Source: Archaeoglobus sp.
Lineage (GTDB): Archaea > Halobacteriota > Archaeoglobi > Archaeoglobales > Archaeoglobaceae
DNA length: 37,016 nt
NCBI GenBank assembly: GCA_017656505.1
Contig: JACDNU010000023.1
Location: 1-37,016, forward strand
Direction: 5' to 3'
The position numbers and the translations under genes are program-made. Shown here piece after piece: positions 6,931 to 21,082 of the stretch; the stretch's first letter is position 1, and each line of letters opens with the position of its first letter. The notes beneath the pieces are model-generated. The model ran no database searches. It was not told the DNA's origin and saw only the letters and a list, made by a program, of their open reading frames with translations.

Positions 6931-7003
6931 GGCCCGGGTAGGGTAGCGGTCATCCTCTGGGACTGTGGATCCCAGGAGCCGGGTTCGAGTCCCGGTCCGG
7001 GCC
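6931..7003 (+). tRNA. tRNA-His (GTG anticodon)
   Basis: A full cloverleaf is visible. G-1 at 6931 pairs with the discriminator C73 at 7003, the hallmark of tRNA-His. The acceptor stem GCCCGGG pairs with TCCGGGC (one G-T pair), the anticodon stem TGGGA/TCCCA encloses loop CTGTGGA with anticodon GTG, and the T arm is CCGGG-TTCGAGT-CCCGG. CCA is not encoded and there is no intron. The 3' 44 bases (from 6960) double as the left attachment site, so the tRNA stays intact after integration. Confidence 0.97.
6960..7003. repeat. attL, left copy of the 44-bp attachment repeat
   Basis: Identical to 19924-19967. It covers the tRNA-His anticodon loop to C73. The outside base before it and the base after it differ from those at the right copy, which sets the limits. 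Confidence 0.95.
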
Positions 7004-7172
7004 TTCCTATTTTTGGCGATACAGTCACTATGGCAGCTTGGATTCCTTCCTTGGCTGCTCTGATCAAGTTATCAATAAATCCAGACTTGTTGACAACGTT
7101 TTCGTCAAGCCATTTTTTGTGGTCTTTTTCTATCGTAATTGTTATTTTCGTTTTACTGGCTTTTTTCGGCAT
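6960..7172 (-). CDS. int(N): N-terminal fragment of SSV-type tyrosine integrase
   Basis: This is the amino-terminal 71 codons of the element's integrase, truncated at attL. Residues 8-46 (KITITIEKDHKKWLDENVV...) look like a ribbon-helix-helix/CopG-type DNA-binding domain. Residues 57-71 are encoded by the antisense strand of the tRNA gene (PGPGLEPGSWDPQS) and are repeated in int(C). The ATG at 7172 has an AGGAGGT ribosome binding site 8 bases upstream (7181-7187). In the integrated state the frame runs on through the tRNA to a stop at 6879, predicting a 97-residue hybrid with an intact RHH domain but no catalytic part. Confidence 0.88.
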
Positions 7173-7307: not shown

Positions 7308-8078
7308 CTATTTTTCTGTGACTTTTATCCAAGTTCCATCTGGATAAACTACGTATCTAGCTTCACCCATCGGTTTTCCACCTGGGTATCTTGCTGTCCA
7401 ATCCAAACTTAACCAATATCTACCCCTTTCGTCTCTATGATAGTAGATTGTTTGATATGTTGAGAGTTGCTTAATTGCTGAATAACTTGTCAAAACTTCT
7501 GCATATGCGTGATTGTCTGTTAGCACAATTCTTGTGGTGGCTCCAATCGATTCCAATAACGCTGAAATCAGAATAGCAAAATCATCACAATCTCCGGCAA
7601 AGCCATTGTGAATAGTTTCACTTGCTCTTGCGAAGTAATCTCTACCCCTCGGATCGTTTACGTATTTCCACTTATTCTTGACATATTTGTAAATTTCAAC
7701 AGCTTGGAAAACGTTCAATTCTCCAGGATATCTAGATGCTAATTTTACAGCTAGGTTTCTGACTGTAGGATTTGTCGAGTCTATAGCTTCTGAAATTTGC
7801 TTTGCAATTTTATCCATTTTTGCGTATTCATAGGATTTGACAACCGGTTTATTTGGTGTGAAAATAGGTGTGGGTAGAGGTCTGGGAGTAAATTTATCAT
7901 TCAAGAAATCCCTTATTAATTTTCCAGACTCATCTAATATTTCTTGGATCCTGTTCTCTACCTCATTTGTGATTTTATCAAGATGTCTGCTAATTTCCTC
8001 ACTTGGATCTTGAGGAATGAAAGAGCATCCTGAGAAAACAATCGTTAGCAAAATTATCAATATCCATAAAGATTTCAT
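7308..8078 (-). CDS. Transglutaminase-like (papain fold) lipoprotein
   Basis: A 256-residue exported protein. It starts with a lipoprotein signal: hydrophobic LWILIILLTIVF, then lipobox FSGC with the modified Cys at 18. A helical and proline-rich linker (about 25-80) leads to a transglutaminase-like domain (about 100-250) with the complete catalytic triad: Cys164 in GFAGDCDDFA, His190 in DNHAYAEV and Asp226 in SLDWTARYPGG. The domain should act as a thiol peptidase or amidase outside the membrane. It lies 50 bp downstream of the membrane-anchored RHH gene and is probably in the same transcript. An envelope role, for example cleaving surface protein or helping plasmid spread, is only a guess. 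Confidence 0.8.
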   Translation of the reverse strand: MKSLWILIILLTIVFSGCSFIPQDPSEEISRHLDKITNEVENRIQEILDESGKLIRDFLNDKFTPRPLPTPIFTPNKPVVKSYEYAKMDKIAKQISEAIDSTNPTVRNLAVKLASRYPGELNVFQAVEIYKYVKNKWKYVNDPRGRDYFARASETIHNGFAGDCDDFAILISALLESIGATTRIVLTDNHAYAEVLTSYSAIKQLSTYQTIYYHRDERGRYWLSLDWTARYPGGKPMGEARYVVYPDGTWIKVTEK

Positions 8079-8128
8079 ATCCTTATACTAGCTGAGAAAA
8101 TAAAAATTTTTTACGTAATTCGGAGTTA

Positions 8129-8692
8129 CTATTTTGAAATGTAACTCAAAGCTTGTGGAGATGGAGAATAATCTGGCTCCTTAAACACAAATTCCTTCTC
8201 TTTAGGCCTGTTAACGTAAGTCTTGTATGCAAAGTAGCCAATCGCAGCCAAGCCAAAGATTAACCCAAGAGCCACAAATACCCTAAAAAGGTTGGCTTTT
8301 GATTGGTTTTTGCCATGCTTCTGGCTAAAGTTAGCATCTCCTTGCGTTAACTGCTCAATCTGCCGATTCAACTTTGGCTCATCTTTATCCTTTTCCGGCT
8401 GAAAGTGGCTTTTTGTGGTGTGCTCGGCTTTGGGTGGTTCTGGCTGGCTAACTTTAACCATTTTTGTATGGCTTTCGTCATGGTCGTGGCTGGTGTTAAC
8501 TGGCTTTTTCTCTACAAAACCACCCACTTTTGTATTATTTTGACTTGGTTTTGAACCAGAGCCACTCTCACCCAAATAGTTAACTACCAGCTCCTTCAAG
8601 ATTTTGCTCTTATTCTTTCCCTCCTTCTTTGCTTTCTCTTCTAAGAGATTGAAGGTCTCTTTATCCAGCCTTATTCCAAGAACTTTACTCAT
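8129..8692 (-). CDS. Membrane-anchored ribbon-helix-helix DNA-binding protein
   Basis: A 187-residue protein. Residues 1-42 form a clear RHH domain (KVLGIRLDKETFNLLEEKAK ... SKILKELVVNYL). Residues 43-135 are a polar, low-complexity linker rich in Ser, Lys, His, Asp and Pro. A single transmembrane helix follows at about 136-156 (FRVFVALGLIFGLAAIGYF), with a short charged tail. This layout would tie a DNA-binding dimer to the cytoplasmic membrane. The ATG at 8692 is chosen because GAGGTG precedes it by about 4 bases; a GTG four codons upstream overlaps that site. A TATA box (TTTATA, 8741-8750) lies upstream, so the gene has its own promoter. Confidence 0.75.
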   Translation of the reverse strand: MSKVLGIRLDKETFNLLEEKAKKEGKNKSKILKELVVNYLGESGSGSKPSQNNTKVGGFVEKKPVNTSHDHDESHTKMVKVSQPEPPKAEHTTKSHFQPEKDKDEPKLNRQIEQLTQGDANFSQKHGKNQSKANLFRVFVALGLIFGLAAIGYFAYKTYVNRPKEKEFVFKEPDYSPSPQALSYISK

Positions 8693-9084: not shown

Positions 9085-9807
9085 TTATGCACCTCTCTCA
9101 TCCCTTGTAAGCTTATACTCACATGGAGGATGCCAGGAATCCTCTCCTTTAGCCATATCAATCAGATACCATTTCTCTCCAGATTTTGCAAAATCGACAC
9201 TCCAGTATCCCTTTACCTCTCGGCCAACAATCTCAGCATATTCAGTCAGGATCTCTACCTCTTCATCTGTTACCGTGTTAAGCTCTCTAAGCTTCTCCCT
9301 CCAGCCTTCAGGTTCCTTAGCCTCCCAAAACCTTATTGCATCCTCAACCCAGTAAGCATGAATACATTGCACGTTCCCATCTTTGATGAAGACTCTCCTC
9401 TCCCTTGCAATTGGTAAACCGTTGAAGGCTTTGAATACATAATCAAGTTTCAATAGCTCTCTGAAAACCAGAGCATTGATCGGCAAGCCAACTATTCCAG
9501 CCATTGCCGATGATTCTACAAGGTTTGAGATATGAGGCATGAGATCTTTCTCGCTTTCCACATAACAGGTGTATTTCCATTCGTGCTTTCCAGAAAGGTG
9601 ATCGGTTCTCATAAAGAGTGGATATCCTATTTTCCTTGCAACCCTCTTGATCTCATCGATATTCCTTGGAAGTTTGCCATCGAGCAAGTCAAAAATGCTC
9701 TCATTCACTTCAACTATCTCAGTTTTTGGCTGTGGAATGTTGAGGTTCTTAATCTTTGGATACCAATAAAGCATTGAGTTCTCGTCAATCTTTTTGGTAT
9801 CGAGCAT
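9085..9807 (-). CDS. ATP-grasp domain protein, R2K-like
   Basis: A 240-residue protein. Residues about 50-235 fit an ATP-grasp fold: the N-terminal ATP-binding strand (YPLFMRTDHLSGKHEWKYTC), the middle segment with basic residues (PIARERRVFIKDGNVQCIHA) and the C-terminal metal-binding strands (GYWSVDFAKSGEKWYLIDMA, then KGEDSWHP). Small ATP-grasp proteins of this kind occur in phages and mobile elements and have been called the R2K clade; they are thought to ligate amino acids or peptides to an acceptor. The acceptor is not identifiable. GAGGTGGT precedes the ATG. The position between replication genes and RHH genes suggests it is expressed with them. Confidence 0.65.
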   Translation of the reverse strand: MLDTKKIDENSMLYWYPKIKNLNIPQPKTEIVEVNESIFDLLDGKLPRNIDEIKRVARKIGYPLFMRTDHLSGKHEWKYTCYVESEKDLMPHISNLVESSAMAGIVGLPINALVFRELLKLDYVFKAFNGLPIARERRVFIKDGNVQCIHAYWVEDAIRFWEAKEPEGWREKLRELNTVTDEEVEILTEYAEIVGREVKGYWSVDFAKSGEKWYLIDMAKGEDSWHPPCEYKLTRDERGA

Positions 9808-10041: not shown

Positions 10042-10457
10042 CCTTTCACCTCCTTCTTTTTCTTCTTTTGAGGAACGTCAAGATAGTTCTCAAAGAGAAA
10101 CAAGCCTAACTCCTCAATTGAGCCTGAAAAAATAAGCTCATCATCCTGAAATTGATAAAATGGATTGGACCTTACAATCTTAGAAGTGTCGTATTCGTAA
10201 AGTTTAACAGACTCTCCTTTTGAGAATAGTATCAGTAAAGGAACCTTCAAGCATTTTGCGATTTTCTTCAAGGTAACGAGCTGAAAACCTCTGATAAGTC
10301 CTGAGGTTGATTTCTTTTCCTCAATTATCGCTTGGATCCTACTGCCTGCATCCAGGATGTAGTCTATGTTCGTGACTACTATGTTTCCATTACGATATTG
10401 TTTTAAGGCTCTGTATAGGGTGTTCTCCAAGTAGTTACCGCAATGTGGGCATTTCAT
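10029..10457 (-). CDS. Zinc-knuckle protein with PD-(D/E)XK nuclease-like core
   Basis: A 142-residue protein. It opens with MKCPHCGNYL, half of a zinc-binding site. The core then reads NIDYILDAGSRIQAIIEEKK followed by LVTLKKIAKCLKVPLLILFS: an Asp, then Glu-x-Lys on a strand, then a helix and strand, which fits the order of a PD-(D/E)XK endonuclease or Holliday-junction-resolvase-like fold. The C-terminus is Lys-rich. It overlaps the stop of the primase-helicase gene by 4 bp (ATGA), so a job in replication or recombination of the element is likely. The nuclease call rests on motif reading only. Confidence 0.55.
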   Translation of the reverse strand: MKCPHCGNYLENTLYRALKQYRNGNIVVTNIDYILDAGSRIQAIIEEKKSTSGLIRGFQLVTLKKIAKCLKVPLLILFSKGESVKLYEYDTSKIVRSNPFYQFQDDELIFSGSIEELGLFLFENYLDVPQKKKKKEVKGWRK

Positions 10458-13400
10458 AGGATTATCTCACCTCTTTCCTTCAGCCTTTTGATGTAGAATC
10501 GGACTCTTTCGGTGTTAGCATTCGGAAACTTCTTCAGAATAATTGAAAGGATGTTAGTCTCAATTTGCGTTCTTGGATAGCCTTCTGGCTCTTGCTCTTT
10601 TTTGTATTTCTCGATTGCAGGTTTGACTGCCTCTTTGATCTCGCTAATCAAGGTTTCCTGATCTGGATCTGAATTTGTTGGTTTGTTATCAGGGTTTGTA
10701 AAATCGTAAACTTCTTCAAAAGTTTCATTCTCTCTCAAATCTCCAGAGCCTTCAAGATAGTTTGTTAGCCCAGCCTCAACACTTTCAACTTCTTCAGTTT
10801 CTTGAACTGGGAATCGAACCTCCCAAACATCTTTGTATGAGTTCTTTCTTCTTTCCATTCCAAGTAGCTTCTTTAGCTCAGACTCAACGTTTGCAAGCCT
10901 CTTTGCTAGGCTTTTGGCTGAAGAATAACTTGCTGCATATCTGTCGTCAATTTCACATAGCATTTTATGTAGTTGGGAAGCAGTAAGCCATTCACCAGCA
11001 TTTGATGCTCTAATAAACTCCTTCAATGCAGGAAGCAAAGGATCATCCTGCAAGGTGAAGGCTGATCTTTCATATTCCATCTTCTCTAGGAGTTCATCAA
11101 CATCCTCATCGATCTCTAAAGCTTCAGCAACAACCTTAACAAAAGCTGCCCAATCAGCCAGCCTGTGTGTTGTCGTAATTTCGCTTAAATCCCTATCTTC
11201 AAGCTTTGCAAGGATCTTGTTCAGATCATCCATGTAGAAACTCCACAAAATATCTTGATACTTTTCAATTGGTTTTAACAAAGCCTGAGGTGGAAGAAAT
11301 TCTTCAAATCTCTTAACATGGAAAATTAACATTCTATCTACTACATCATCTCTCTTGAATTTTGGATCTCTGCTTGTGAGTCCGAGAAAACACCTCGGAG
11401 TCTCACGAATTTCATCAAAGTCGGAGTAAAGCTTTCTCTTCCTTACAATAATTCCTGTTGAAATTGTGGCAAGAGCATCCTGGAGCCATTTATGTTGTCT
11501 ATCTATATTGTCAATAAAATAAATCGGACTTTTTGAAGCTACAACGTAGAAATCCTTCTCATCCGGAAGGTCACTTAATTCGAACCCTGGACCCTCCAAG
11601 AACATGCCAATCATTTTGAGTGTTACACTTTTTCCTGATCCTTTCTCACCCACAAGACACATGATAGGCCTTGCTTCTAGGAGATTCTGGAATGGAAATG
11701 CGTAGATATGCAGTAAGAGTTGGAGTCTTTGCTCTCTTTCATTCAGTGCTGTATCATAGCTGAAATTAGTCCTGTTAACTAAGAGGCGATGCAAAATTGA
11801 TCCTTTTCCTTTGAATTCCTCTATTTCACCTTTGATTTCAATTTCAACATTTCTTTTACTGGGAGGAATATACTTGATTGGTGTGGAATTGACTGAATGG
11901 AAGTAAATTCCATTAATCCCATTAGGGAGCTTTTTAATTGTCCTTCCATCCAGAACGTAGTAATGTGAATCTCGATCATAGATGTATAGCTTGTTCTGTT
12001 CTCTATCGTAATAGAACAGCCTGAAAATCTCTATTTCCTCTCCGAACCTGAGAGAATAATTTTCTAAATCTTTGAGGATAAACCTCCCTTCATCGGTTGC
12101 CAGATTAACTCCATAAAGTTCAGATAAAAGAGGTTCAAGCTCTTGGATCTTGTAAACCTTTTTCTCCTGTTCATAAAAATAATAACCCAAATTCGATTTA
12201 TCCTTGAGAAACTTTCCCTTCCTTTCCAGATCTCTCCTTATCACACCGGAAATAACTCTCTTCTTGACTTTCTCCTCAATTGCAGTTGGTGTTCTTGGAT
12301 CAGACTTCTCCGATCTTCTAAATACTGCTATCGCCTTCTTTAAGTCTCTTATACCCTCCAACAGCTCATCTATTGAGGTGTATTCATAACACTGTTCTTT
12401 ATTGTTCCAGGAAGCTCGAGCCATTGATGGATCAATCCCGTTCTCCTTTAATGCAGCCTTGAAAAGGGAGATTACATCTCCTCTGAAGTAAGCAAATGCG
12501 TCATCCTTTGAGATCGCTCTCTTCATAAGCTCCTTGAAGTCATCGGCAGAATGAGTTTTGAAGTAGTCATTGAGGTCTATTTTCTCAACATCCTCAGGCT
12601 TTGGGAGAATGATAAGATAGCTATCGTCATGCAAAGCTTCTAAGATATCCAAGGCTCCTTGTAAGCCTGCCTGAGACTCCTCATTATCGTTGCAAACGTA
12701 GACTTTCTTATTCCTAACCCATTTTTGGATCTCAGGAATGTGCTTCTTCTTGAACCTAACTGTAACCGGAGATAAACATGGAAATCCGTTTGCTATTGCC
12801 GAAATAGCATCAGCTATTCCCTCAGTTATTACAACAAACTCAGAACCTTTTATTGAATCTAGGCCGAAAAGAGGCTCAGAGATAATTTCTGACACATAGG
12901 GATGATTATCTGAATGTTTCAGCTGTTTCTTATACTTTGCATCATCCCATTCTGGAGTCCAGGGTGTTTTTCTTGCTATGAAGTAAACGGGATTACCGTG
13001 CTTGAAGTATGGGATTACTATCCTTCCCTGGAAGAAATCCTTAACACCTTTATCAGTCTTAATGAGCAATCCAGATTTTAGAGCTAGATCAGGTCCAAAT
13101 TTGGATGTGAGGTAATCAGACAGCTTATAACCATCTTCTGGTGAATATCCTATTCCAAATCTCTCAATTACCTCGGTTGAAAAGCCGTATTTTTCTTTGA
13201 TCCAGAATCTATGCTCATCCTTTAGATTTGAAACGAAAAATCTATGAGCAGCCTCGAGAACTTCTCGTATCTTCTCCTCTTCCTCTCTGTATCTTTTCAG
13301 CTCTCTTCTTCTCTCAGGAGTTAGCTCAAATTCAATTCCTGCAATTTCGGCAGCTCTCTTCAAAACCTCTGGGAAAACGTGAGAGATGTTAGAGGCTTCG

Positions 13401-13648
13401 CTACAATCAACAAAACCCTCAGCAACTGCAATCCATTCAAACTTGGATCCTCCAGATTGGCATCTAAAGCAATACCAGACTTCCCTGCCTGGATCAATTA
13501 CAAGATTTTTACCACTGGTAGATCCATGCACGGGATGAGGGCCTTGAAGTTGATGGCCCACTCTCTTAAATCCTGTTGTGTCGATTAGTTCCTCAAGTGA
13601 AGGTAAGGCTTCCCAGATTTCATCCCTGAGATTTTTCAGCTCCGGCAT
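10454..13648 (-). CDS. Primase-helicase fusion, replication protein of the element
   Basis: A 1064-residue protein. Residues about 35-70 resemble a DnaG/CHC2 zinc finger with His38/His41 and CFRC (60-63), lacking the usual first Cys. Residues about 120-380 form a DnaG-type Toprim primase core: Glu in VVITEGIADAIS (about 273) and the acidic pair in VCNDNEESQ (about 316). A helicase domain follows with Walker A GEKGSGKS (about 668), Walker B YFIDNID (about 712), and the sensor-like FLGLTSRD. The last 70 residues are helical and winged-helix-like (ILSIILKKFPNANTERVRFY). It should prime and unwind the element during replication. It heads a leftward operon, with GGAGG a few bases before the ATG. 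Confidence 0.88.
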   Translation of the reverse strand: MPELKNLRDEIWEALPSLEELIDTTGFKRVGHQLQGPHPVHGSTSGKNLVIDPGREVWYCFRCQSGGSKFEWIAVAEGFVDCSEASNISHVFPEVLKRAAEIAGIEFELTPERRRELKRYREEEEKIREVLEAAHRFFVSNLKDEHRFWIKEKYGFSTEVIERFGIGYSPEDGYKLSDYLTSKFGPDLALKSGLLIKTDKGVKDFFQGRIVIPYFKHGNPVYFIARKTPWTPEWDDAKYKKQLKHSDNHPYVSEIISEPLFGLDSIKGSEFVVITEGIADAISAIANGFPCLSPVTVRFKKKHIPEIQKWVRNKKVYVCNDNEESQAGLQGALDILEALHDDSYLIILPKPEDVEKIDLNDYFKTHSADDFKELMKRAISKDDAFAYFRGDVISLFKAALKENGIDPSMARASWNNKEQCYEYTSIDELLEGIRDLKKAIAVFRRSEKSDPRTPTAIEEKVKKRVISGVIRRDLERKGKFLKDKSNLGYYFYEQEKKVYKIQELEPLLSELYGVNLATDEGRFILKDLENYSLRFGEEIEIFRLFYYDREQNKLYIYDRDSHYYVLDGRTIKKLPNGINGIYFHSVNSTPIKYIPPSKRNVEIEIKGEIEEFKGKGSILHRLLVNRTNFSYDTALNEREQRLQLLLHIYAFPFQNLLEARPIMCLVGEKGSGKSVTLKMIGMFLEGPGFELSDLPDEKDFYVVASKSPIYFIDNIDRQHKWLQDALATISTGIIVRKRKLYSDFDEIRETPRCFLGLTSRDPKFKRDDVVDRMLIFHVKRFEEFLPPQALLKPIEKYQDILWSFYMDDLNKILAKLEDRDLSEITTTHRLADWAAFVKVVAEALEIDEDVDELLEKMEYERSAFTLQDDPLLPALKEFIRASNAGEWLTASQLHKMLCEIDDRYAASYSSAKSLAKRLANVESELKKLLGMERRKNSYKDVWEVRFPVQETEEVESVEAGLTNYLEGSGDLRENETFEEVYDFTNPDNKPTNSDPDQETLISEIKEAVKPAIEKYKKEQEPEGYPRTQIETNILSIILKKFPNANTERVRFYIKRLKERGEIIL

Positions 13649-13841
13649 AGACCTCCTCCAGCAGCTCTAACGCGAAAGTAAGCCGTAAATAGAAATCATA
13701 CTTCAATGTTGGAGTTAATTCCAGTCTAAAATCTTCAATAACTGTTTCAATGAGTCTTTTAGCTTTGTAGATACGATCAAAATCGGGATTTGATGTTATA
13801 GATTTATATACTATGCCTTTTATATTCTTTTCAGGAGCCAT
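13620..13841 (-). CDS. Small helical protein upstream of primase-helicase
   Basis: A 73-residue mostly helical protein (DRIYKAKRLIETVIEDFRLE, then YDFYLRLTFALELLEEVYAG). It overlaps the primase-helicase start by 29 bp and is co-transcribed with it. The ATG at 13841 follows a GTGGT ribosome-binding-like site; a GTG three codons earlier is the alternative. No family recognised. Confidence 0.6.
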   Translation of the reverse strand: MAPEKNIKGIVYKSITSNPDFDRIYKAKRLIETVIEDFRLELTPTLKYDFYLRLTFALELLEEVYAGAEKSQG

Positions 13842-13864
13842 ACTAACCACTTTTTTAAAATTTT

Positions 13865-14014
13865 TTAATTCACAGGAGTTAGCACGATCTTTTCATCCTC
13901 GACTGTGATTTCCATAAATTCTGAATCTAGAGAATCGGCTATTTCGTGTGGGATCTGAATCACTTTTTCATTGCCGAATTTTCTAATCTTTCGTATCCAC
14001 TTTGGTTTGACCAT
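13865..14014 (-). CDS. Small AbrB/SpoVT-like DNA-binding protein
   Basis: A 49-residue gene. The product reads WIRKIRKFGNEKVIQIPHEI, then ADSLDSEFMEITVEDEKIVL, the swapped-hairpin AbrB pattern: a basic strand, a Gly turn, the IP-x-E/D-I motif, then a strand pair. It is likely a dimeric repressor. A minus-strand TATA (GATATATAGG, about 14037-14046) puts the transcript start at or next to the ATG, so the mRNA looks leaderless. It lies ahead of the replication operon and divergent to the gene at 14091, so it may control either. Confidence 0.75.
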   Translation of the reverse strand: MVKPKWIRKIRKFGNEKVIQIPHEIADSLDSEFMEITVEDEKIVLTPVN

Positions 14015-14057
14015 GTGTAAAATACTAAGTTATACCTATATATCTCTTTCCCGAGGT

Positions 14058-14076
14058 ATTGGTTTAAATTACCAAT
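14058..14076. promoter_or_regulatory. Operator-like inverted repeat over a TATA box
   Basis: ATTGGTTTAAATTACCAAT has 6-base arms (ATTGGT/ACCAAT) around TTTAAAT, the probable TATA box of the gene at 14091. A dimer bound here would block that promoter. The AbrB-like protein next door is the simplest candidate. Confidence 0.5.
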
Positions 14077-14090
14077 GCATTGCTATCCAT

Positions 14091-14990
14091 ATGAATAGAA
14101 AGGTATTTAAAGAAAGAAAAGGTCTTTCGTTTATGGCACGTAAAATTGTTAACCCTCTAAAAGAAGGTGATATCAGTAAGGTTTTCTTACTGGCCTATCC
14201 GGATTTTATAAGTGGTTATGATATTAATAAAAAGTTGGGTAAAGGGAATAAGGAAGGTTGGATATACCAAGTGATAAATGATTTTGCTCATCTTTTTGAG
14301 ATTAAGAGAGAAACTTCTACTAAGAGAATTAAAAAGTTAATTCGATCAAAATCTGAGCATCTATTAAACGAAATTATAAAAGAATTTGATTTAAAACTTA
14401 ACGAAAAAAGAATGATGAAGTTTAAACAATTTTTTGAAGAAGACTTGAGAGATTTCATTAAAATAGATTACGAGATAATTGAAAAGGAGATAAATAAAAA
14501 AGATGGTTATACGCTTTTAAAGGAGAGGATATTTCGTATACAAGCCTTGGCATTTAAATATGAGTTTCTATACCATGTCAATCTTGTTATTTCCAAAAAT
14601 AGTAAAAAATCCTCTTTTACGGAATTTTTGTCGTATTTCGAGCAAAATTCAGAAAAATACTTGAATCTCTTTAAAGAAATTCCTGATCAAAGTGACAAAC
14701 TTAGAGGTTATTTTCCAATACCTGAAGAAATATTGGAAAAGCTAACTCTAGAATTTTTGGAGTATGATTCAGAAGAAATTCAGTTTCTTAAAAAATTAGT
14801 AGAAAAATATGGTGAAGAATTTGTGTTCTCTGAAATCTACTTAATTTCTCCGCATGAACTCTATTTCATTATTGGATTGATCAGAGGATTAATCAGAATG
14901 CTTATAGAGCTTGCTGAAAATCTTATTAATCTTGAAAAAGAGTTGGAAAACTGTAAAGACGAGTTAGAATCTAAAAAAAGAGGGTCTTAA
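14091..14990 (+). CDS. Unrecognised AT-rich gene with N-terminal winged-helix-like segment
   Basis: A 299-residue product. After a basic N-terminus, residues about 20-70 (ISKVFLLAYPDFISGYDINK then GWIYQVINDFAHLFEIKR) resemble the winged helix of PadR-like regulators. The rest is charged and helical (about 90-290), ending in a coiled-coil-like tail (LINLEKELENCKDELESKK). Its base composition is more AT-rich than its neighbours, suggesting separate acquisition. The ATG at 14091 lies about 25 bp after the TATA-like TTTAAAT; an internal ATG at 14133 is an alternative. No known family; it stands alone between the replication module and the putative origin. Confidence 0.6.
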   Translation: MNRKVFKERKGLSFMARKIVNPLKEGDISKVFLLAYPDFISGYDINKKLGKGNKEGWIYQVINDFAHLFEIKRETSTKRIKKLIRSKSEHLLNEIIKEFDLKLNEKRMMKFKQFFEEDLRDFIKIDYEIIEKEINKKDGYTLLKERIFRIQALAFKYEFLYHVNLVISKNSKKSSFTEFLSYFEQNSEKYLNLFKEIPDQSDKLRGYFPIPEEILEKLTLEFLEYDSEEIQFLKKLVEKYGEEFVFSEIYLISPHELYFIIGLIRGLIRMLIELAENLINLEKELENCKDELESKKRGS

Positions 14991-14999
14991 AGTTTTGAT

Positions 15000-15035
15000 A
15001 TTGAATAAAATAATAAAAAAATCAAAAATTTAATC
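15000..15035. repeat. 36-bp direct repeat, copy 1
   Basis: A perfect match to 15495-15530. Both copies are AT-rich and each sits just past the stop codon of an RHH-like reading frame on the minus strand. Confidence 0.9.
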
Positions 15036-15077
15036 CTCGTAGATCTTTATCTTCCTTGATAGTTTCTCAAAACTAAA
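15030..15077 (-). pseudogene. 3' remnant of an RHH-like gene
   Basis: The minus strand reads FSFEKLSRKIKIYED and a stop, aligned with the last residues of the gene at 15529-15786 (KYSRSKRISLYLH and stop) and followed by the same 36 bases. It looks like the tail of a second, lost copy of that gene. Confidence 0.4.
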
Positions 15078-15494
15078 ATTAATGGGTGTTATAAAAATTA
15101 TCAATCAAAAGTATTTGATTTTTATCTATCGGATTTATGAACATTAAGTTGTTACTTTTCATCTAAAAAGTGTTACTGAATTTGAAAAAGAGGAAGGAGA
15201 GAGGAGCTTTCCGGTTTTCAGGATTTGCTTATACTATAAACTTCTGGGTAGGTATGTAGGGGGTACCCCCTATATATTACCTAAAAAAATTTGACACTTT
15301 TTAAACCGGTAAACCGGAAATTCATGCATGACCTCGTTTTTGGCTATAATTTATTACCCAGGGTGAATTACGGATTCTCAGTTTGGATGTGTTTTAAAAC
15401 CTCGATACAACCTATTTTAAAAATTATAAGTTCGGCAAAATAATCAAAAGAAGCCGTCTCCGGCCTTCCGGTTTACGGATTGATTTCCGAGGAG
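15036..15494. other. Noncoding tract, candidate replication origin
   Basis: 459 bp with no plausible gene. It holds a perfect 16-bp palindrome TAGGGGGTACCCCCTA (15257-15272) and three copies of a TTCCGGTTTW core: 15209-15218 and 15466-15475 on the plus strand, 15310-15319 on the minus strand, the last one doubled next to ACCGGT. It is flanked by a 36-bp direct repeat. Iteron-like repeats plus palindrome and AT-rich stretches are what a plasmid origin or partition site looks like; no function is proven. Confidence 0.45.
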
Positions 15495-15530
15495 ATTGAA
15501 TAAAATAATAAAAAAATCAAAAATTTAATC
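15495..15530. repeat. 36-bp direct repeat, copy 2
   Basis: A perfect match to 15000-15035. Its last two bases overlap the stop codon of the gene at 15529-15786. Confidence 0.9.
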
Positions 15531-15786
15531 AATGTAGATATAGACTTATCCTCTTCGATCTGGAATACTTCTTTCTCAACTCCTCAGCCTTCTTCCACAG
15601 CTTCTCAGCTTCAGGAAACTTCCCTATGGCAGCCAAACAGTCAAGATCTGCACTCAAATCGAGCACAACGTTATGGCTTATGTAGTCCTCTGCCTTATCT
15701 TCAAGAAAGTGATCACTGAATTCTTTCAGCAGGCTGTAAACATCTTTGGGGAGTTTTATTTTCAACTCAACTTCCTCAACAACCAT
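15529..15786 (-). CDS. RHH-like small protein
   Basis: An 85-residue protein. Residues 5-28 (VELKIKLPKDVYSLLKEFSD) look like the strand and first helix of an RHH domain; a second helical part (DLDCLAAIGKFPEAEKLWKK) resembles a helix-turn-helix repeat and ends in a basic tail. Its start shares a base with the stop of the preceding RHH gene (TAATG), so the two are translationally coupled and may form a heteromeric regulator. Confidence 0.65.
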   Translation of the reverse strand: MVVEEVELKIKLPKDVYSLLKEFSDHFLEDKAEDYISHNVVLDLSADLDCLAAIGKFPEAEKLWKKAEELRKKYSRSKRISLYLH

Positions 15787-15980
15787 TACTTCCCCTCTAT
15801 CCCATACATTCCTATTTTCAACTTATTCCATCCAAGGATGTGCTTCCTGACAGCCTCTGCAACAAATTCCTCAACAGATTCATAGCCAAGTTCTCTGTGC
15901 TTTTCCATGAACTCCTCCACCCAAGAAATCAAACCAGCTGGGAGTTTTACTCCAACCAACTCGATTTTCCCAACACTCAT
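15786..15980 (-). CDS. RHH DNA-binding protein
   Basis: A 64-residue protein: strand GKIELVGVKLP, helix ISWVEEFMEKHRELG, then SVEEFVAEAVRKHILGW, the standard ribbon-helix-helix order. The ATG at 15980 is supported by AGGTGA about 6 bases upstream; the frame is open for 18 more codons but lacks a signal there. It is divergent from the RHH gene at 16068, and the shared promoter carries two inverted repeats, so autoregulation is likely. Confidence 0.78.
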   Translation of the reverse strand: MSVGKIELVGVKLPAGLISWVEEFMEKHRELGYESVEEFVAEAVRKHILGWNKLKIGMYGIEGK

Positions 15981-16007
15981 GGTTTTCACCTCTTCTATTT
16001 TACATAC

Positions 16008-16038
16008 TATTTGCATCATTTTAGATGATAGCAAAATA
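16008..16038. promoter_or_regulatory. Inverted repeat in divergent RHH promoter (site 1)
   Basis: The left arm TATTTGCATCAT mirrors the right arm ATGATAGCAAAATA around TTTAG, with one extra base. It overlaps the probable transcript start of the leftward RHH gene pair. The same half-site appears at the promoter of the PRTase-like gene (17387-17399). Confidence 0.5.
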
Positions 16039-16047
16039 TTTAAATTT

Positions 16048-16063
16048 TATGCTAAATAGCATA
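16048..16063. promoter_or_regulatory. Inverted repeat in divergent RHH promoter (site 2)
   Basis: TATGCTAAATAGCATA has perfect 7-base arms. It lies between the TATA-like ATTTAAAT (16038-16045) and the ATG at 16068, where a bound repressor would block the leaderless rightward gene. Confidence 0.55.
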
Positions 16064-16067
16064 CAAT

Positions 16068-16244
16068 ATGCAGCGATATAGAGGAAAAAGAATAACCATC
16101 ACAATACCAGAAGGGATCTGGAGAATTATCGAGGAAAACTTAAAAGGAGTTATGGGAGATAAGGACTCAGAGATAATAAGAAACATCGTTATTGCTTGGC
16201 TTTCTGATAAATCCTACTTGAAGAAAGAGAAAGAAGAACAATAA
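16068..16244 (+). CDS. Small RHH DNA-binding protein
   Basis: A 58-residue protein: QRYRGKRITITIPEGIWRII gives the basic strand and first helix, and KDSEIIRNIVIAWLSDKSYL the second helix of a ribbon-helix-helix domain; the tail is charged. The TATA-like ATTTAAAT lies about 26 bp before the ATG, so the mRNA is probably leaderless. It converges on the PRTase-like gene. Confidence 0.75.
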   Translation: MQRYRGKRITITIPEGIWRIIEENLKGVMGDKDSEIIRNIVIAWLSDKSYLKKEKEEQ

Positions 16245-16318
16245 AAATTTAAACTATCATCTTGATATTTTTGTGATTTCTATGGAAGAATATTCTATTC
16301 AAATTAGAAAAGTTAGCA

Positions 16319-17374
16319 CTAATACCAATATACAGTGTATCCTCTGCTTTTGCTTACTAGGGTAAATTTATCTTTAAAGCGTTCAAGCAATTTTGAGGAA
16401 AAATTTTGTTCTAGGCAGCGACAGCAAACATTAGGGACAAGATCTTTGGGGATGTTTTTATCACAAGTCTCATCTGGACATAGTCTTTGTAAATCATTTA
16501 CATCCAAAATATATGGGGAACAAAATGCCATGGAACTGAGTTTATAGAAAGACCCCTTATGTTTGGCTCTAACTCTTAGCTGCACACGTTCAAAGTCTAA
16601 AATACGTTTCTCTTGATCTGATAAAAATAGATCTCTAAATATATCCGTCACATACTCAAGTTCTAAGGAATATTTGAAATTTGTTTTCTCGTCCACGAAT
16701 AGGACTTCCTCACTTTCAACAACATCTATCTCATTATCGAAAATCTTCAGAAATGACTCTCTAATGATCTCTTTAAGTTCATCTTTGTCTTTACAACCTA
16801 TTTCGCATTCCTCATAAATGTGATCAGTATCAAGAGGTGTTAATCTGGAATGGTAGTAGGCTGTTAATTTTTGATGAACTAGATTGTAATCGTCATCATT
16901 TATTGCCACAACAACGAAGCAAAATTCAGTATCGGGGTGATTAGCCTCCAACCTATTAAGAGTATCCTTTCTAATTACGTAACCCACCACTTTAACTACT
17001 TTTTTATTTAGAGATTCAAGGACTTCTATGACCTTCTCTATCTCCTCACCTTTATTTATCGCATCTACTGCAATTATCAGTTCATTGGGTTCAGGAGCAT
17101 CATACAATTTCTTAATGATCGCAACATCTGATAGTGACTCTAACTTTAACGCAGACACGTTAAATTGGTGCTCCATTAAAAAAGGTAATAAAGGCTGAAA
17201 GAGATGTGTCCCACGTCGATCTATCGTGCGGATATCTTTTGGCCTATCCTTGATAGTGAGAATGCATTTTTTTATTAAGTGATTTAGATCCTTTCTTATC
17301 TGAGCTACTATTTCGTTTGGATTCTTTTCGGATAGGTTGGAAAACATTTCTTCAATGCTTTTTGGTACATCCAT
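16319..17374 (-). CDS. Phosphoribosyltransferase-like protein with C-terminal Cys cluster
   Basis: A 351-residue protein. The N-terminal helical part (1-45) leads to a PRTase-type fold: FQPLLPFLMEHQFNVSALKL, then the strand and loop LIIAVDAINKGEEI (about 100-113), in the place of the PRPP-binding loop, then VVKVVGYVIRKD. The loop differs from the classic acidic-pair/Thr-Gly form, so activity may be altered. Residues about 280-330 carry clustered cysteines (LCPDETC and CCRC), probably a zinc site. It resembles PRTase domains predicted in prokaryotic conflict systems. The ATG at 17374 lies about 25 bp after TATA GATATATTTT, a leaderless start. It is divergent from the wHTH and HD genes. Confidence 0.6.
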   Translation of the reverse strand: MDVPKSIEEMFSNLSEKNPNEIVAQIRKDLNHLIKKCILTIKDRPKDIRTIDRRGTHLFQPLLPFLMEHQFNVSALKLESLSDVAIIKKLYDAPEPNELIIAVDAINKGEEIEKVIEVLESLNKKVVKVVGYVIRKDTLNRLEANHPDTEFCFVVVAINDDDYNLVHQKLTAYYHSRLTPLDTDHIYEECEIGCKDKDELKEIIRESFLKIFDNEIDVVESEEVLFVDEKTNFKYSLELEYVTDIFRDLFLSDQEKRILDFERVQLRVRAKHKGSFYKLSSMAFCSPYILDVNDLQRLCPDETCDKNIPKDLVPNVCCRCLEQNFSSKLLERFKDKFTLVSKSRGYTVYWY

Positions 17375-17386
17375 ATTTTTTGTATT

Positions 17387-17408
17387 ATGATGCAAAATAT
17401 ATCTTTTT
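17387..17408 (-). promoter_or_regulatory. PRTase-like gene promoter with RHH-type half-site
   Basis: TATA box GATATATTTT is followed, before the ATG, by TATTTTGCATCAT, nearly the same as the arms of the repeat at 16008-16038. An RHH protein of the element may bind both. Confidence 0.45.
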
Positions 17409-17488
17409 CTAATTTTATTATCTGTTATCGTGCTATATCAAAAATTTTATAAGAGTAATTAGCATTAGTGTTTCATAACTATATTAAT

Positions 17489-17557
17489 TACTAAAATAGT
17501 AGCAATAGTTCTAATCATTTGTCTAAAATCATAAATTTTAAATACTATTGTTTAGTA
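17489..17557. promoter_or_regulatory. Paired TACTA/TAGTA operator-like sites before the wHTH gene
   Basis: TACTAAAATAGTA (17489-17501) and TACTATTGTTTAGTA (17543-17557) share the same 5-base arms with 3- and 5-base spacers. The TATA-like TTTTAAATAC (17536-17545) partly overlaps the second, which ends just before the probable transcript start. Confidence 0.5.
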
Positions 17558-17563
17558 GAGAAT

Positions 17564-17884
17564 ATGGTGATTAAAATGGCTAAAAAGCCGAAACATGAAA
17601 TTTTGTCAAATGAGTTAAAGGTAGCAGCAGAGATTTATTACCAAGTTCATGAAAAAGGTGAGAAAGTCTGGTTCAATAAACTTGTGGAGCTTTTGAGTGA
17701 TTACATGAGTAGGAGTACAATCCAAAAAGCTCTAAATGTCCTTTTTGATTGGGGTATTGTTAAAGGCGAGTATGGTGAAACTGAAAAAGGTAGAGCTGGG
17801 AGATTACTATTAATAGCCACAGAACACAAGGATACCATCAGGAAAATTTACGAAACTTACTGGAAAGATAAAGACTCCAAGTAA
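17564..17884 (+). CDS. Winged-helix transcriptional regulator
   Basis: A 106-residue protein with one winged-helix domain: KHEILSNELKVAAEIYYQVH, KVWFNKLVELLSDYMSRSTI with recognition helix QKALNVLFDWGIVKGEYGET, then the wing RAGRLLLIA. A leaderless start at 17564 fits the TATA position; an internal ATG at 17576 preceded by GGTGAT is a good second choice. It stops 3 bp before the HD gene, so the two form an operon. It probably represses the operon and perhaps the divergent PRTase-like gene through the paired TACTA/TAGTA sites. Confidence 0.78.
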   Translation: MVIKMAKKPKHEILSNELKVAAEIYYQVHEKGEKVWFNKLVELLSDYMSRSTIQKALNVLFDWGIVKGEYGETEKGRAGRLLLIATEHKDTIRKIYETYWKDKDSK

Positions 17885-17887
17885 AAT

Positions 17888-18661
17888 ATGGACAAAATAG
17901 TATATGTGGGGGTAACCGAAGAAGATGTGGCTAAATTAGATTTCATAGAAGTGTACTCTCGACAAGTTTTGGAGTATGTCCACAGAGGCATACCAAACTT
18001 TCCTAACCATGGCGTCTTTCACGTATTGAATGTGATCGACAACATCAAAGAACTATTGGGATCTTATATTTCACTTGGCTATGAGTTCTCCCCTAAAGAA
18101 TGGTTGATACTTTATTTATCTGCATGGTTACATGACTGGGGAAATATAGTCATTACTTCAGAGGATGAAAGAAGTAAGCATGCTGAATACTCTGTGAGGA
18201 TAATGGAGAAATTAGGTGATTATTTACATTTTCTTGGAAAGGACATCATCGAATGTGTTAAATCTGTAATTTTGTATCACAGTAGTGTTTTTGATTTGGC
18301 TGAATTGCCAACTGAATCACTTGGTGTGAGATTAAGATTAATTTCAGCTTTTTTCAGAATCGCCGATGCTTGCGATGCCTCATTCTCGAGAGCTAGTCAA
18401 ATTCTATTCAAAATATTAGATGAATTTTTATCAGAGGAGAACAGAGAATTCTGGGAGGCTCATCAAGCAATCTTAGATCTACGTTTTTCTAATACAAAAA
18501 TAATTATAGAGGTCGAACATGGGAAAAAAGAGAAAGCTGAAAAGTTGATCAAAAAGATCAACCAAGAAGTAGAAGATGTTAATAAGGTGCTTAAAGAATA
18601 CGAGATGCCAGTTTTATCAGTTGAAGTTAAAGAAACACCACCACTCGGTCAAGAAAGTTAA
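17888..18661 (+). CDS. HD-domain phosphohydrolase-like protein
   Basis: A 257-residue protein with the full set of HD metal ligands: HGVFH (41-45), AWLHDWGN with His82-Asp83, KHAEYS with His98, LYHSS with His131, and RIADACDAS with Asp160/Asp163. The C-terminus (about 195-257) is a small alpha/beta extension (TKIIIEVEHGKKEKAEKLIK). HD domains hydrolyse phosphate esters, often nucleotides or signalling nucleotides. The layout resembles HD domains described in predicted prokaryotic conflict systems. Paired with a PRTase-like protein and a regulator, it may make or destroy a nucleotide signal; the substrate is unknown. Confidence 0.75.
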   Translation: MDKIVYVGVTEEDVAKLDFIEVYSRQVLEYVHRGIPNFPNHGVFHVLNVIDNIKELLGSYISLGYEFSPKEWLILYLSAWLHDWGNIVITSEDERSKHAEYSVRIMEKLGDYLHFLGKDIIECVKSVILYHSSVFDLAELPTESLGVRLRLISAFFRIADACDASFSRASQILFKILDEFLSEENREFWEAHQAILDLRFSNTKIIIEVEHGKKEKAEKLIKKINQEVEDVNKVLKEYEMPVLSVEVKETPPLGQES

Positions 18662-18688
18662 GAAAACTAATAAAACTGATAGATCCCT

Positions 18689-18874
18689 TTAATCGATTTT
18701 AACCACACCACAATTCAAACAAATCCACCCAATACCTACCATCGTTGCCTTCTTGGCATACTGAGATTTAACATAAATCCTTTTCATCAAAGTTCTACAA
18801 GTAGGGCATTTTTCATGTTTTCCTCTGGTTTTCTGGTTCAAATTCCTTAGTTTAAACGGTATAACGTTATTCAC
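18689..18874 (-). CDS. Zinc-ribbon protein
   Basis: A 61-residue protein with two CxxC knuckles, EKCPTCRTLM and WICLNCGVV, about 27 residues apart, a classic zinc ribbon. GTG at 18874 is chosen because GAGGTG lies 5-6 bases upstream; another GTG three codons earlier overlaps that site. It is read in the same direction as int(C), directly downstream of it, and may be co-expressed. Role unknown, perhaps nucleic-acid binding. Confidence 0.65.
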   Translation of the reverse strand: MNNVIPFKLRNLNQKTRGKHEKCPTCRTLMKRIYVKSQYAKKATMVGIGWICLNCGVVKID

Positions 18875-18915
18875 AAGCCACACCTCTTTATTAAAAAATG
18901 AAAAGGTTTGGAGAT

Positions 18916-19967
18916 TTATTCCAAAATCGATTTTACCAACTTTTCAACCTCATTCTTCTGTTCTTTAGTCAGAATCTCTACTTTATCCCAGTATTTCAGC
19001 CAGTCATCACGAATGCTTTCTTTTGTCACTTTGCCTTTGAGGTAATTTTCAATTCTTACAGCATACTTTTCCGTGTCATGGCCTGCTATTATAGCCTCAA
19101 GAAATCCTGGAACTCCAAGCTTGTTCATGCTGTAATCGACCTCAAAATCTCTCAGATTATCGACTTCAATTCCTGAGACTCTTTTCTTTATCACGTCTGT
19201 GATCGTATCTTTGGGAAACATCTTTTTCGATTGTAGTTGGAGCTTCTTTCTCAGTTTCTTGTTTTCCCATATCACCATAAAATGATTCAGAATCCAATGT
19301 GACTCCTTGTTTATTGGAATCAGCCTTTCAAATGGCGTCTTTGTGAATTCTTCTGGCAGAATAAAGTATCTCTTTTTAATTCCCTCCTTAATCTGCTTGT
19401 CCTCAATCCTATAAAGTTCGAAAGGCCTTAATCCAGTTGAAGCACCAAGGATTATCGCTGCAATAGCTCTCAACTTCATGAAAGCATCGTTTACCTTGTA
19501 TCTCCTCCATTTTCCGGAGAGAATCACATCAATCGCCTTCCTTAGCTTCTCTAAAGTTATAGCTTTCTCCTCTTCAGTATAGAGCTTCTTAGTTTTCTTA
19601 CCTTTCCATTTGAGTAGTTTTGCATATTCTTCGAAAACAGGCTCATCGAATCTCTCGGCTAGCCATCTTAGGAACACCTTGAGATCCTTGAAAAGGTTCT
19701 TTCCATAAGGTTCGAATTGATACTTGTCTCTCCACTTAATGAATTCTTCTCTGGATAAATCCTTGATTTCCCTTTGGAATCGCTTTATTTTTGTTCTATA
19801 TCCTGATCTATGCTCTTTTTTGTATCTTGATAAGAATTCTTCTATAATCTCATCACTAAGAAATTCAGTTTTCTTTAGTCTGCGAGCTTCTTTTCGCTTA
19901 ATCTCTTCTTTAAATTCTCTGAAGGACTGTGGATCCCAGGAGCCGGGTTCGAGTCCCGGTCCGGGCC
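18916..19967 (-). CDS. int(C): C-terminal catalytic part of SSV-type tyrosine integrase
   Basis: Open from attR to the stop at 18916, encoding residues 57-406 of the joined integrase. The att-encoded peptide (PGPGLEPGSWDPQS) is followed by a long charged helical region (72-175) and the tyrosine recombinase core: Arg237 in STGLRPFEL, Lys266 in the hairpin (EEFTKTPFERL), Arg329 in NLRDFEV, His353 in IAGHD, and the probable nucleophile Tyr365 in IENYLK. A GTG at 19677 could start a shortened product, but homologous-looking sequence continues upstream to att. While integrated, this piece has no normal start or promoter, so the enzyme is off until excision or re-joining. Confidence 0.9.
19924..19967. 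repeat. attR, right copy of the 44-bp attachment repeat
   Basis: Identical to 6960-7003. Here the tRNA 3' half stands without its 5' half and lies inside the integrase reading frame. Confidence 0.95.
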
Positions 19968-20054
19968 CTATTCTCGAATTACCTTTCTGGTTTTCATATG
20001 TAAGTTATGGTGAAGTTTAATCTTCACGGATCTTCTCGTGGTTGCTACTCCCCC

Positions 20055-20426
20055 CTACTCCCCCTTATCTGTTTTTGATTTCTCCAGCCCCTCCATCATC
20101 TTCAGCAAAACTTTTTTGAGTTCAGGAAGCTGTTCCTTTATTATCACCCACACAATTTCGAGATCTACTGCAAAATAGCCATGAATGACAACATTTCTCA
20201 AACCAACAACTCTGTTCCAAGGTATTTCTCTATATTTTGAGCGGAGGTTTTCGGGAATGTTTTTTGCAGCCTCTCCTATAATTTCGAGATTCCTTAAAAC
20301 TGCATCAACAACCATATCTTGTTCCATAAAATCCTGTGAATCTCTGATTGAAGATATATACCTTTCAATCTTCTCTATAGCCTCAAGCATATCTTGAATG
20401 AACAGCTCTGGAGTTCGTTTAGACAT
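20055..20426 (-). CDS. hepT: HepT-like toxin of a MntA-HepT pair
   Basis: A 123-residue HEPN-fold protein. The signature RX4HXY is present as RNVVIHGY (Arg77, His82, Tyr84). Helical surroundings (LFIQDMLEAIEKIERYISSI and DAVLRNLEIIGEAAKNIPEN) match HepT/DUF86. HepT acts as an RNase and is inactivated when its partner adds AMP to the tyrosine of this motif. Its ATG overlaps the end of the antitoxin gene by 8 bp, so both are made from one mRNA. It lies just outside attR, so it is chromosomal or from an earlier insertion. Confidence 0.88.
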   Translation of the reverse strand: MSKRTPELFIQDMLEAIEKIERYISSIRDSQDFMEQDMVVDAVLRNLEIIGEAAKNIPENLRSKYREIPWNRVVGLRNVVIHGYFAVDLEIVWVIIKEQLPELKKVLLKMMEGLEKSKTDKGE

Positions 20427-20715
20427 AAACTATCTCCCTTTCTATGGATTTCCAGAGTATAGATTTTCTCATAGCAGCCCTCTTTGTGACAACATCAACC
20501 CTAACTCCGAGCAGTTCTTCAAGGAATTCCTTCAAATCGACGATTTCCCAGCCTACAGGTTCGTAAAATTCAACAATAACATCAACATCACTTGTCTCCT
20601 TTTGCTCCCCCTTCGTTACAGAACCAAAAACACCTATACTCTTGATCTTAAACCTCTCTTTCAGAATTCTATCGTTCTCCTTTAGTATCTGGATTACCTC
20701 TTCGAGGTTTTTCAT
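20419..20715 (-). CDS. mntA: MntA-like minimal nucleotidyltransferase antitoxin
   Basis: A 98-residue nucleotidyltransferase with the GSx10DxD motif: Gly31-Ser32 in GVFGSVTKGE and Asp43-x-Asp45 in TSDVDVIVEF. It would AMPylate the HepT toxin. The ATG at 20715 is where the family normally begins (NLEEVIQILKENDRILKERF). The frame stays open upstream to 20850 and even further except for one TAG near 20869, and that sequence looks protein-like (DEDYYLVVLYIVESPSTAMV), so a decayed gene may be fused ahead of it. Confidence 0.85.
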   Translation of the reverse strand: MKNLEEVIQILKENDRILKERFKIKSIGVFGSVTKGEQKETSDVDVIVEFYEPVGWEIVDLKEFLEELLGVRVDVVTKRAAMRKSILWKSIEREIVYV

Positions 20716-21082
20716 AACTCTATTTGATTTTTCACCATACATTATCTTTTCCCCGTCGGTAGAAACAGTAGTTTCGGCAACATCTACCATAGCTGTACTT
20801 GGAGATTCAACTATGTAAAGAACTACGAGATAGTAGTCTTCATCCTCCAAAGCAGCAACTTCGTAAATCTATTCAATTTTACCATAACTATTTTTGAAAA
20901 GTTACAATTTATATAACACACTCTCTATGATGGGCTATCGACACTCTGTAATGGGATCACTGAAAGCATGCAGGAAGAAATTGAGCATTTCATAAAAATA
21001 AAATGAGAGCAGGATTAGAAAATCAACTGTTCTTAGAAATTTTCAGAGACAGCAAGAGAATTCCAAAGCAAAGTTTATATTT

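Follow-up and report, generated by a model that had tools for sequence, protein, structure and literature searches.

Archaeal defence is much less explored than that of bacteria. Among the described systems closest to the locus studied here are PsyrTA (RqlHI) and ShosTA, which likewise have a PRTase domain as a conflict component. RqlH is toxic in a manner that depends on residues in the PRPP pocket of its PRTase domain (PMC4670107), and E. coli is protected against T7 and lambda by a pair of PRTase and DprA (PMC9122126). Another relative is PRTase-CE (PF24390), a prokaryotic PRTase-fold conflict protein. Within the phylum of our locus, PRTase-CE genes (L040, L041) are flanked by a C5 cytosine methylase gene on one side and a large ATPase gene on the other, and their products keep the DD loop. 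A further conflict-associated family, HD-CE (PF24391), occurs elsewhere in the same archaeal family as the N-terminal domain of proteins of approximately 900-960 aa (L014, 1115-3991; L015), the rest of which appears HSP90-like by eye. PRTase-CE and HD-CE reportedly originate from a comparative paper in J Bacteriol of 2020.

The window, a stretch of 37,016 nucleotides of Archaeoglobus DNA, represents an entire contig (C23) of a 2.5 Mb genome. It encodes a set of three proteins: a PRTase-fold protein, a winged-helix (wHTH) protein and an HD protein. The set differs from PsyrTA and ShosTA in having neither DprA nor helicase, in its partners wHTH and HD, and in a degenerate PRPP loop. An assignment to these systems was rejected, as the PRTase had no PADLOC match and no DprA-like gene was present among the annotated neighbours; nor did the set as a whole match a defence system in PADLOC. 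The window protein was likewise rejected as a member of PRTase-CE (no profile match; hhalign probability 0.4% against one member), and distant members of its family gave sub-threshold PRTase-CE matches. The HD protein is a member of HD-CE, yet stands alone behind the wHTH protein. A full-text literature search, with a coverage that excludes the comparative paper mentioned above, retrieved no description of the set. Provisionally, the set is considered new.

Gene organization and intergenic region

The positions of the three ORFs given in the first-pass annotation were confirmed, and all three are intact. The gene of the PRTase-fold protein (16319-17374, minus strand, 351 aa) is divergent from those of the wHTH protein (plus strand, from alternative ATG starts at 17564 or 17576 to 17884) and the predicted HD-CE phosphohydrolase (17888-18661, plus strand, 257 aa), the latter beginning 3 bp past the wHTH stop. 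The intergenic region (17375-17563) contains candidate promoters for both strands. A TATA-like AAAATATAT, recognized by eye on the minus strand at 17394-17402, is located about 25 bp upstream of the PRTase ATG at 17374, and the N-terminus MDVP is common to the window protein and its Archaeoglobales relative; hence this ATG, and not the TTG at 17395, is the preferred start of the PRTase. On the plus strand, the wHTH start is preceded by a TTTAAATA box at 17537-17544.

The region had been interpreted as a shared, regulated divergent promoter. The divergent order is indeed present in every HD-containing locus with the full set of three genes, but approximately 140 bp separate the two promoters and an operator was not found: ungapped matching of the intergenic regions of the loci gave no common operator for the window. 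Outstanding matches were limited to those of the two intergenic regions within a single virus contig (ACTAAAAAAC[GT]AAA[GC]TAACTTT), of two Methanomicrobiales loci (G292 and G511) and, weakly, of L025 with L019 (p ~0.02); the comparison used mono-nucleotide shuffles over many pairs, and its p values are indicative only. An Rfam scan of 13600-20100 yielded no match. Small ribbon-helix-helix-like ORFs, recognized from the sequence only, are located directly downstream of the PRTase gene (16069-16245, plus strand; 15786-16034, minus strand). A possible small zinc-ribbon protein, seen by eye, is encoded at about 18680-18880 (minus strand), between the HD gene and the integrase gene int(C).

The PRTase-fold protein

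By sequence, the window PRTase shows a weak Pfam UPRTase match (E 0.0047). An AlphaFold model built from eight homologues reached a mean pLDDT of 74, and its top PDB matches in Foldseek were type I PRTases (uracil, orotate, adenine and PyrR; best E 3.7e-5), with TM scores by target mostly of 0.40-0.58. At this moderate model confidence, the prediction supports a PRTase fold of type I and thus does not refute the PRTase-like nature originally proposed.

The altered PRPP loop and the cysteine cluster noted before are real and largely conserved. Every HD-linked PRTase carries the loop D[ACS]IxxGxE, in the window as IIAVDAINKGEE. Only one residue of the usual acidic pair is left and an E replaces the terminal T, whereas catalytic type I PRTases have both acids and a GxT/S end. 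The C-terminal, zinc-type Cys motif (CCRCLEQNFS in the window) has the consensus CxxC-x3-N-x-[ST] with an additional upstream Cys and is kept wherever the C-terminus is complete, the N position being variable in the copies from viruses and in a further member. The HD-linked clade may thus bind PRPP, perhaps without turnover. Since the loop has lost one acid and its terminal T has become E, a ligand sensor is more likely than a synthase. The suggestion that one protein makes a nucleotide which the other hydrolyses therefore finds no support for the HD-linked clade, in which the PRPP loop is degenerate and the conserved pair consists of the PRTase and the wHTH protein.

The wHTH and HD proteins

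Of the three proteins, the wHTH protein is conserved best, with 46-61% identity to those of the other module loci, and it shows weak matches to several winged-helix families. Its conservation, greater than that of the PRTase, would also be expected of a simple autoregulator.

The HD protein affiliates with Pfam HD-CE (E 7.4e-20), at 71.9-72.2 bits against the PF24391 cut-off of 27; the viral copy scores 66 bits. It displays the pattern H...HD...H...H...D of the HD superfamily, and the predicted metal ligands H45, H82, D83, H98, H131 and D160 are invariant in an alignment of eight loci. Its structural model (mean pLDDT 87) is closest in Foldseek to domain III of Ppx/GppA, followed by cyclic-nucleotide phosphodiesterase and HD-GYP folds, with 3rf0 (TMt 0.66), 1u6z and the HD-GYP protein 4mcw as best matches. 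These predicted similarities suggest phosphohydrolysis without naming a substrate, which is not transferable from the fold matches because sequence identity is just 10-18%.

Distribution of the gene set and exchange of the PRTase

The wHTH protein was searched by pattern scan in 84,980 prokaryote species, each represented by one genome, and in IMG/VR, followed by profiles of all three proteins; the scan used exact short patterns, and more distant copies may exist elsewhere. The divergent arrangement of the PRTase gene and the wHTH-HD genes was recovered in a second Archaeoglobales genome (G018), in G292, in a Methanoregula MAG (L022, also G511), in Methanoculleus (L025, also G438) and in Methanosarcina Ant1 (L023, also G642). 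In G111, the PRTase gene and the start of the wHTH gene are located at a contig end. Two loci, G437 (L024) and G650 (L073), contain wHTH and HD genes, and a hidden or broken PRTase gene sought there was not convincingly found, which weakens the case for an obligatory PRTase sensor. Two IMG/VR virus contigs encode two PRTase-wHTH pairs and a single HD protein, in the order PRTase, wHTH, PRTase, wHTH-HD, adjoining the genes of a head-protease-like protein and a major capsid protein. The set thus recurs in unrelated settings, namely Archaeoglobales, Methanomicrobiales, Methanosarcina and two archaeal virus contigs, which answers the neighbourhood question raised at the outset. Its distribution is very patchy (5 of the 394 genomes of the phylum). 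The PRTase and HD proteins gave no tblastn match in phage records, nor did the PRTase in plasmid records, and no PRTase profile pattern was confirmed in viral contigs; a wider PRTase alignment (A7) was too divergent for searching.

The loci of G292 and G511, both Methanomicrobiales, share nearly identical wHTH (92/97 residues) and HD (249/260) proteins with a dN/dS of about 0.05-0.07, whereas their PRTases agree in 259/363 residues and synonymous sites are saturated. DNA identity is approximately 70% over the PRTase gene and 93% over wHTH-HD; the break falls in the intergenic region, with the rise at the start of the wHTH gene, and the flanking sequences bear no relation to each other. Most simply, this would mean that recombination has exchanged the PRTase gene and that the module occupies different places in the two genomes. 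Type I R-M genes adjoin the complete loci in G292, G511 and G438, in G292 together with an Mrr-type endonuclease. This proximity, found in 3 of about 7 loci and noticed after the fact, includes in G511 an hsdS gene on a small contig; a rough chance for a strong N6-methylase within 8 kb, computed post hoc, is 0.6-2% per locus. The copies in the window and in Methanosarcina have no R-M neighbour.

More distant PRTase-wHTH pairs were encountered in the order that was searched starting from G120 (G339, G345, G354, G597 and G600), all of them tail to tail and with no HD-CE gene in the surrounding sequence examined. The PRTases of these HD-less pairs retain the DD acids in an FDD[ST]I loop, and a matching Cys motif. 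In G339 and G345, related membrane proteins (BLASTP 8e-37), one of them with a weak DUF2254 match, are encoded on the same strand just upstream of the PRTase gene; we infer that they may be the effectors. The PRTases of G597 and G600 begin with hydrophobic segments of their own. In G322, the wHTH, Cys and PRTase domains are fused in permuted order (aa 55-130, 253-313 and 382-520), and the fusion gene is convergent with that of an HD-like protein. The latter was rejected as a member of the HD family proper, as it aligns to the HD profile only at the HD motif. The PRTase and the wHTH protein constitute the conserved core and the HD protein a replaceable part; the third partner is HD-CE in one clade, whereas in other cases a membrane protein is encoded alongside or the PRTase is itself membrane-anchored.

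The integrative element

The placement of the module within a mobile element was borne out, with exact ends now provided by repeats and a split integrase. An element of 12.96 kb is integrated in tRNA-His (6931-7004, located with ARAGORN) between perfect 44-bp direct repeats, attL (6960-7003), which comprises the 3' part of the tRNA gene, and attR (19924-19967). The integrase is of the partitioned SSV type. Its N-terminal part, int(N) (6960-7172, minus strand), reads MPKKASKTK...GRPGPGLEPGSWDPQS into the left repeat. Its C-terminal part, int(C) (18916-19967, minus strand), has a frame open from attR; within the right repeat, the integrase sequence picks up again with residues identical to the int(N) end GRPGPGLEPGSWDPQS. 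With the attachment site in the int gene and a tRNA gene as target, the element is of the SSV-type or "suicidal" type, in which integration splits the integrase (as reviewed in PMC8371274). All three module genes are located inside, adjoining int(C).

The replication backbone of the element is represented by a DnaG/Toprim-type primase-ATPase (10454-13648, minus strand), for which no relatives were found in viral contigs. A related SSV-type element is present in tRNA-Pro of another genome of the family (G019:C1 609161-619194; L080, L081). It shares the primase (46-47% identity) and neighbouring replicon genes and carries different cargo; the PRTase, wHTH and HD genes are absent from it. The module is therefore cargo, being absent from an element with a matching replication backbone. 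Also inside the window element, an ATP-grasp protein of the R2K type is encoded at 9085-9807 (minus strand; Pfam R2K_3, E 1.6e-5), near genes of a ribbon-helix-helix protein and a transglutaminase-like protein. Just beyond attR (20055-20850, minus strand) lies a HEPN-like/MNT-like nucleotidyltransferase pair with, by eye, the look of a toxin-antitoxin system.

Proposed function and alternative explanations

The conflict-type setting supposed in the first-pass annotation is real: the module is found on mobile elements, on virus contigs and beside type I R-M genes, and its PRTase has been swapped. Our favoured reading, to which we give a little less than an even chance, is an archaeal conflict module borne on mobile elements, in which a PRTase-type protein would sense, a wHTH protein would regulate and an HD effector would act on a nucleotide. 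A fixed pair with a varying third partner is the strongest structural argument for such a sensor/effector system. A conflict function as such may be true or false with about equal probability, and the assignment of the HD protein as effector falls just short of that; the role of the PRTase as sensor rather than enzyme is somewhat more tentative.

The PRTase-like protein would be the component sensing a ligand or target, since it shows the fastest divergence, has been swapped from allele to allele and, in the HD clade, has partly lost the catalytic loop. The wHTH protein would be its partner and control the divergent promoters. Together, the pair might sense a perturbation such as infection, a rival element or a nucleotide imbalance, upon which the HD protein would be expressed or released and could hydrolyse a phosphorylated nucleotide, so that growth or the replication of the intruder stops. 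If this is true, the system is compact: a PRTase fold that has apparently turned into a sensor works together with a DNA-binding protein and an exchangeable effector. It would share its logic with other threshold-type immune systems and be carried by mobile elements, presumably against rivals, and the HD-CE family would gain a new genetic context. A broader and rather doubtful extension is an archaeal immune-system family with a core of PRTase (C-terminal CxxC-x3-N) and wHTH, sometimes fused, and interchangeable effectors (HD-CE, a membrane protein or a membrane-anchored PRTase). Such a family would be located on integrative elements and viruses and in restriction islands, with loss of the canonical PRPP loop accompanying the gain of HD.

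A small DNA-binding protein gene directly upstream of an enzyme gene, on an integrated element, is also what a toxin-antitoxin-like addiction module retaining the element would show, with the HD protein (or the PRTase, as in PsyrT and ShosT) as toxin and the wHTH protein with a partner as antitoxin or repressor. The HD-less family members do weakly resemble ShosT (2.5e-4) and PsyrT (0.018) in PADLOC. The window PRTase, however, matches neither and is without a DprA-like partner, and its gene is transcribed divergently, outside the wHTH-HD operon; we regard this explanation as unlikely. Less probable again is a nucleotide-salvage or -homeostasis operon, in which the PRTase and HD proteins would tune pools for replication of the element under a PRPP- or nucleotide-responsive wHTH protein. 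The stably degenerate PRPP loop of the HD clade, the patchy distribution and the allele swapping argue against it, and the Cys domain and the wHTH partner are foreign to salvage enzymes, even though both enzyme domains are typical of nucleotide metabolism and the fold matches include UPRT, APRT and OPRT.

PyrR is a PRTase that serves as a regulator, and by this precedent the divergent PRTase and wHTH proteins might form an immunity- or lysogeny-type switch that regulates the element or virus, with the HD protein as minor cargo. The divergent promoters, the copies on viruses and a wHTH relative standing alone near the head genes of two virus contigs are compatible with such a switch. We consider it very improbable, as modules also occur in chromosomes (G292 and G438), where they adjoin R-M genes and no integrase was seen in the vicinity, and the HD protein is under strong purifying selection. 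The lone relative, encoded at 7989-8288 of the IMG/VR contigs L028 and L029 beside a head morphogenesis gene, shares 38% identity with the module wHTH and could be a decoy or counter-regulator.
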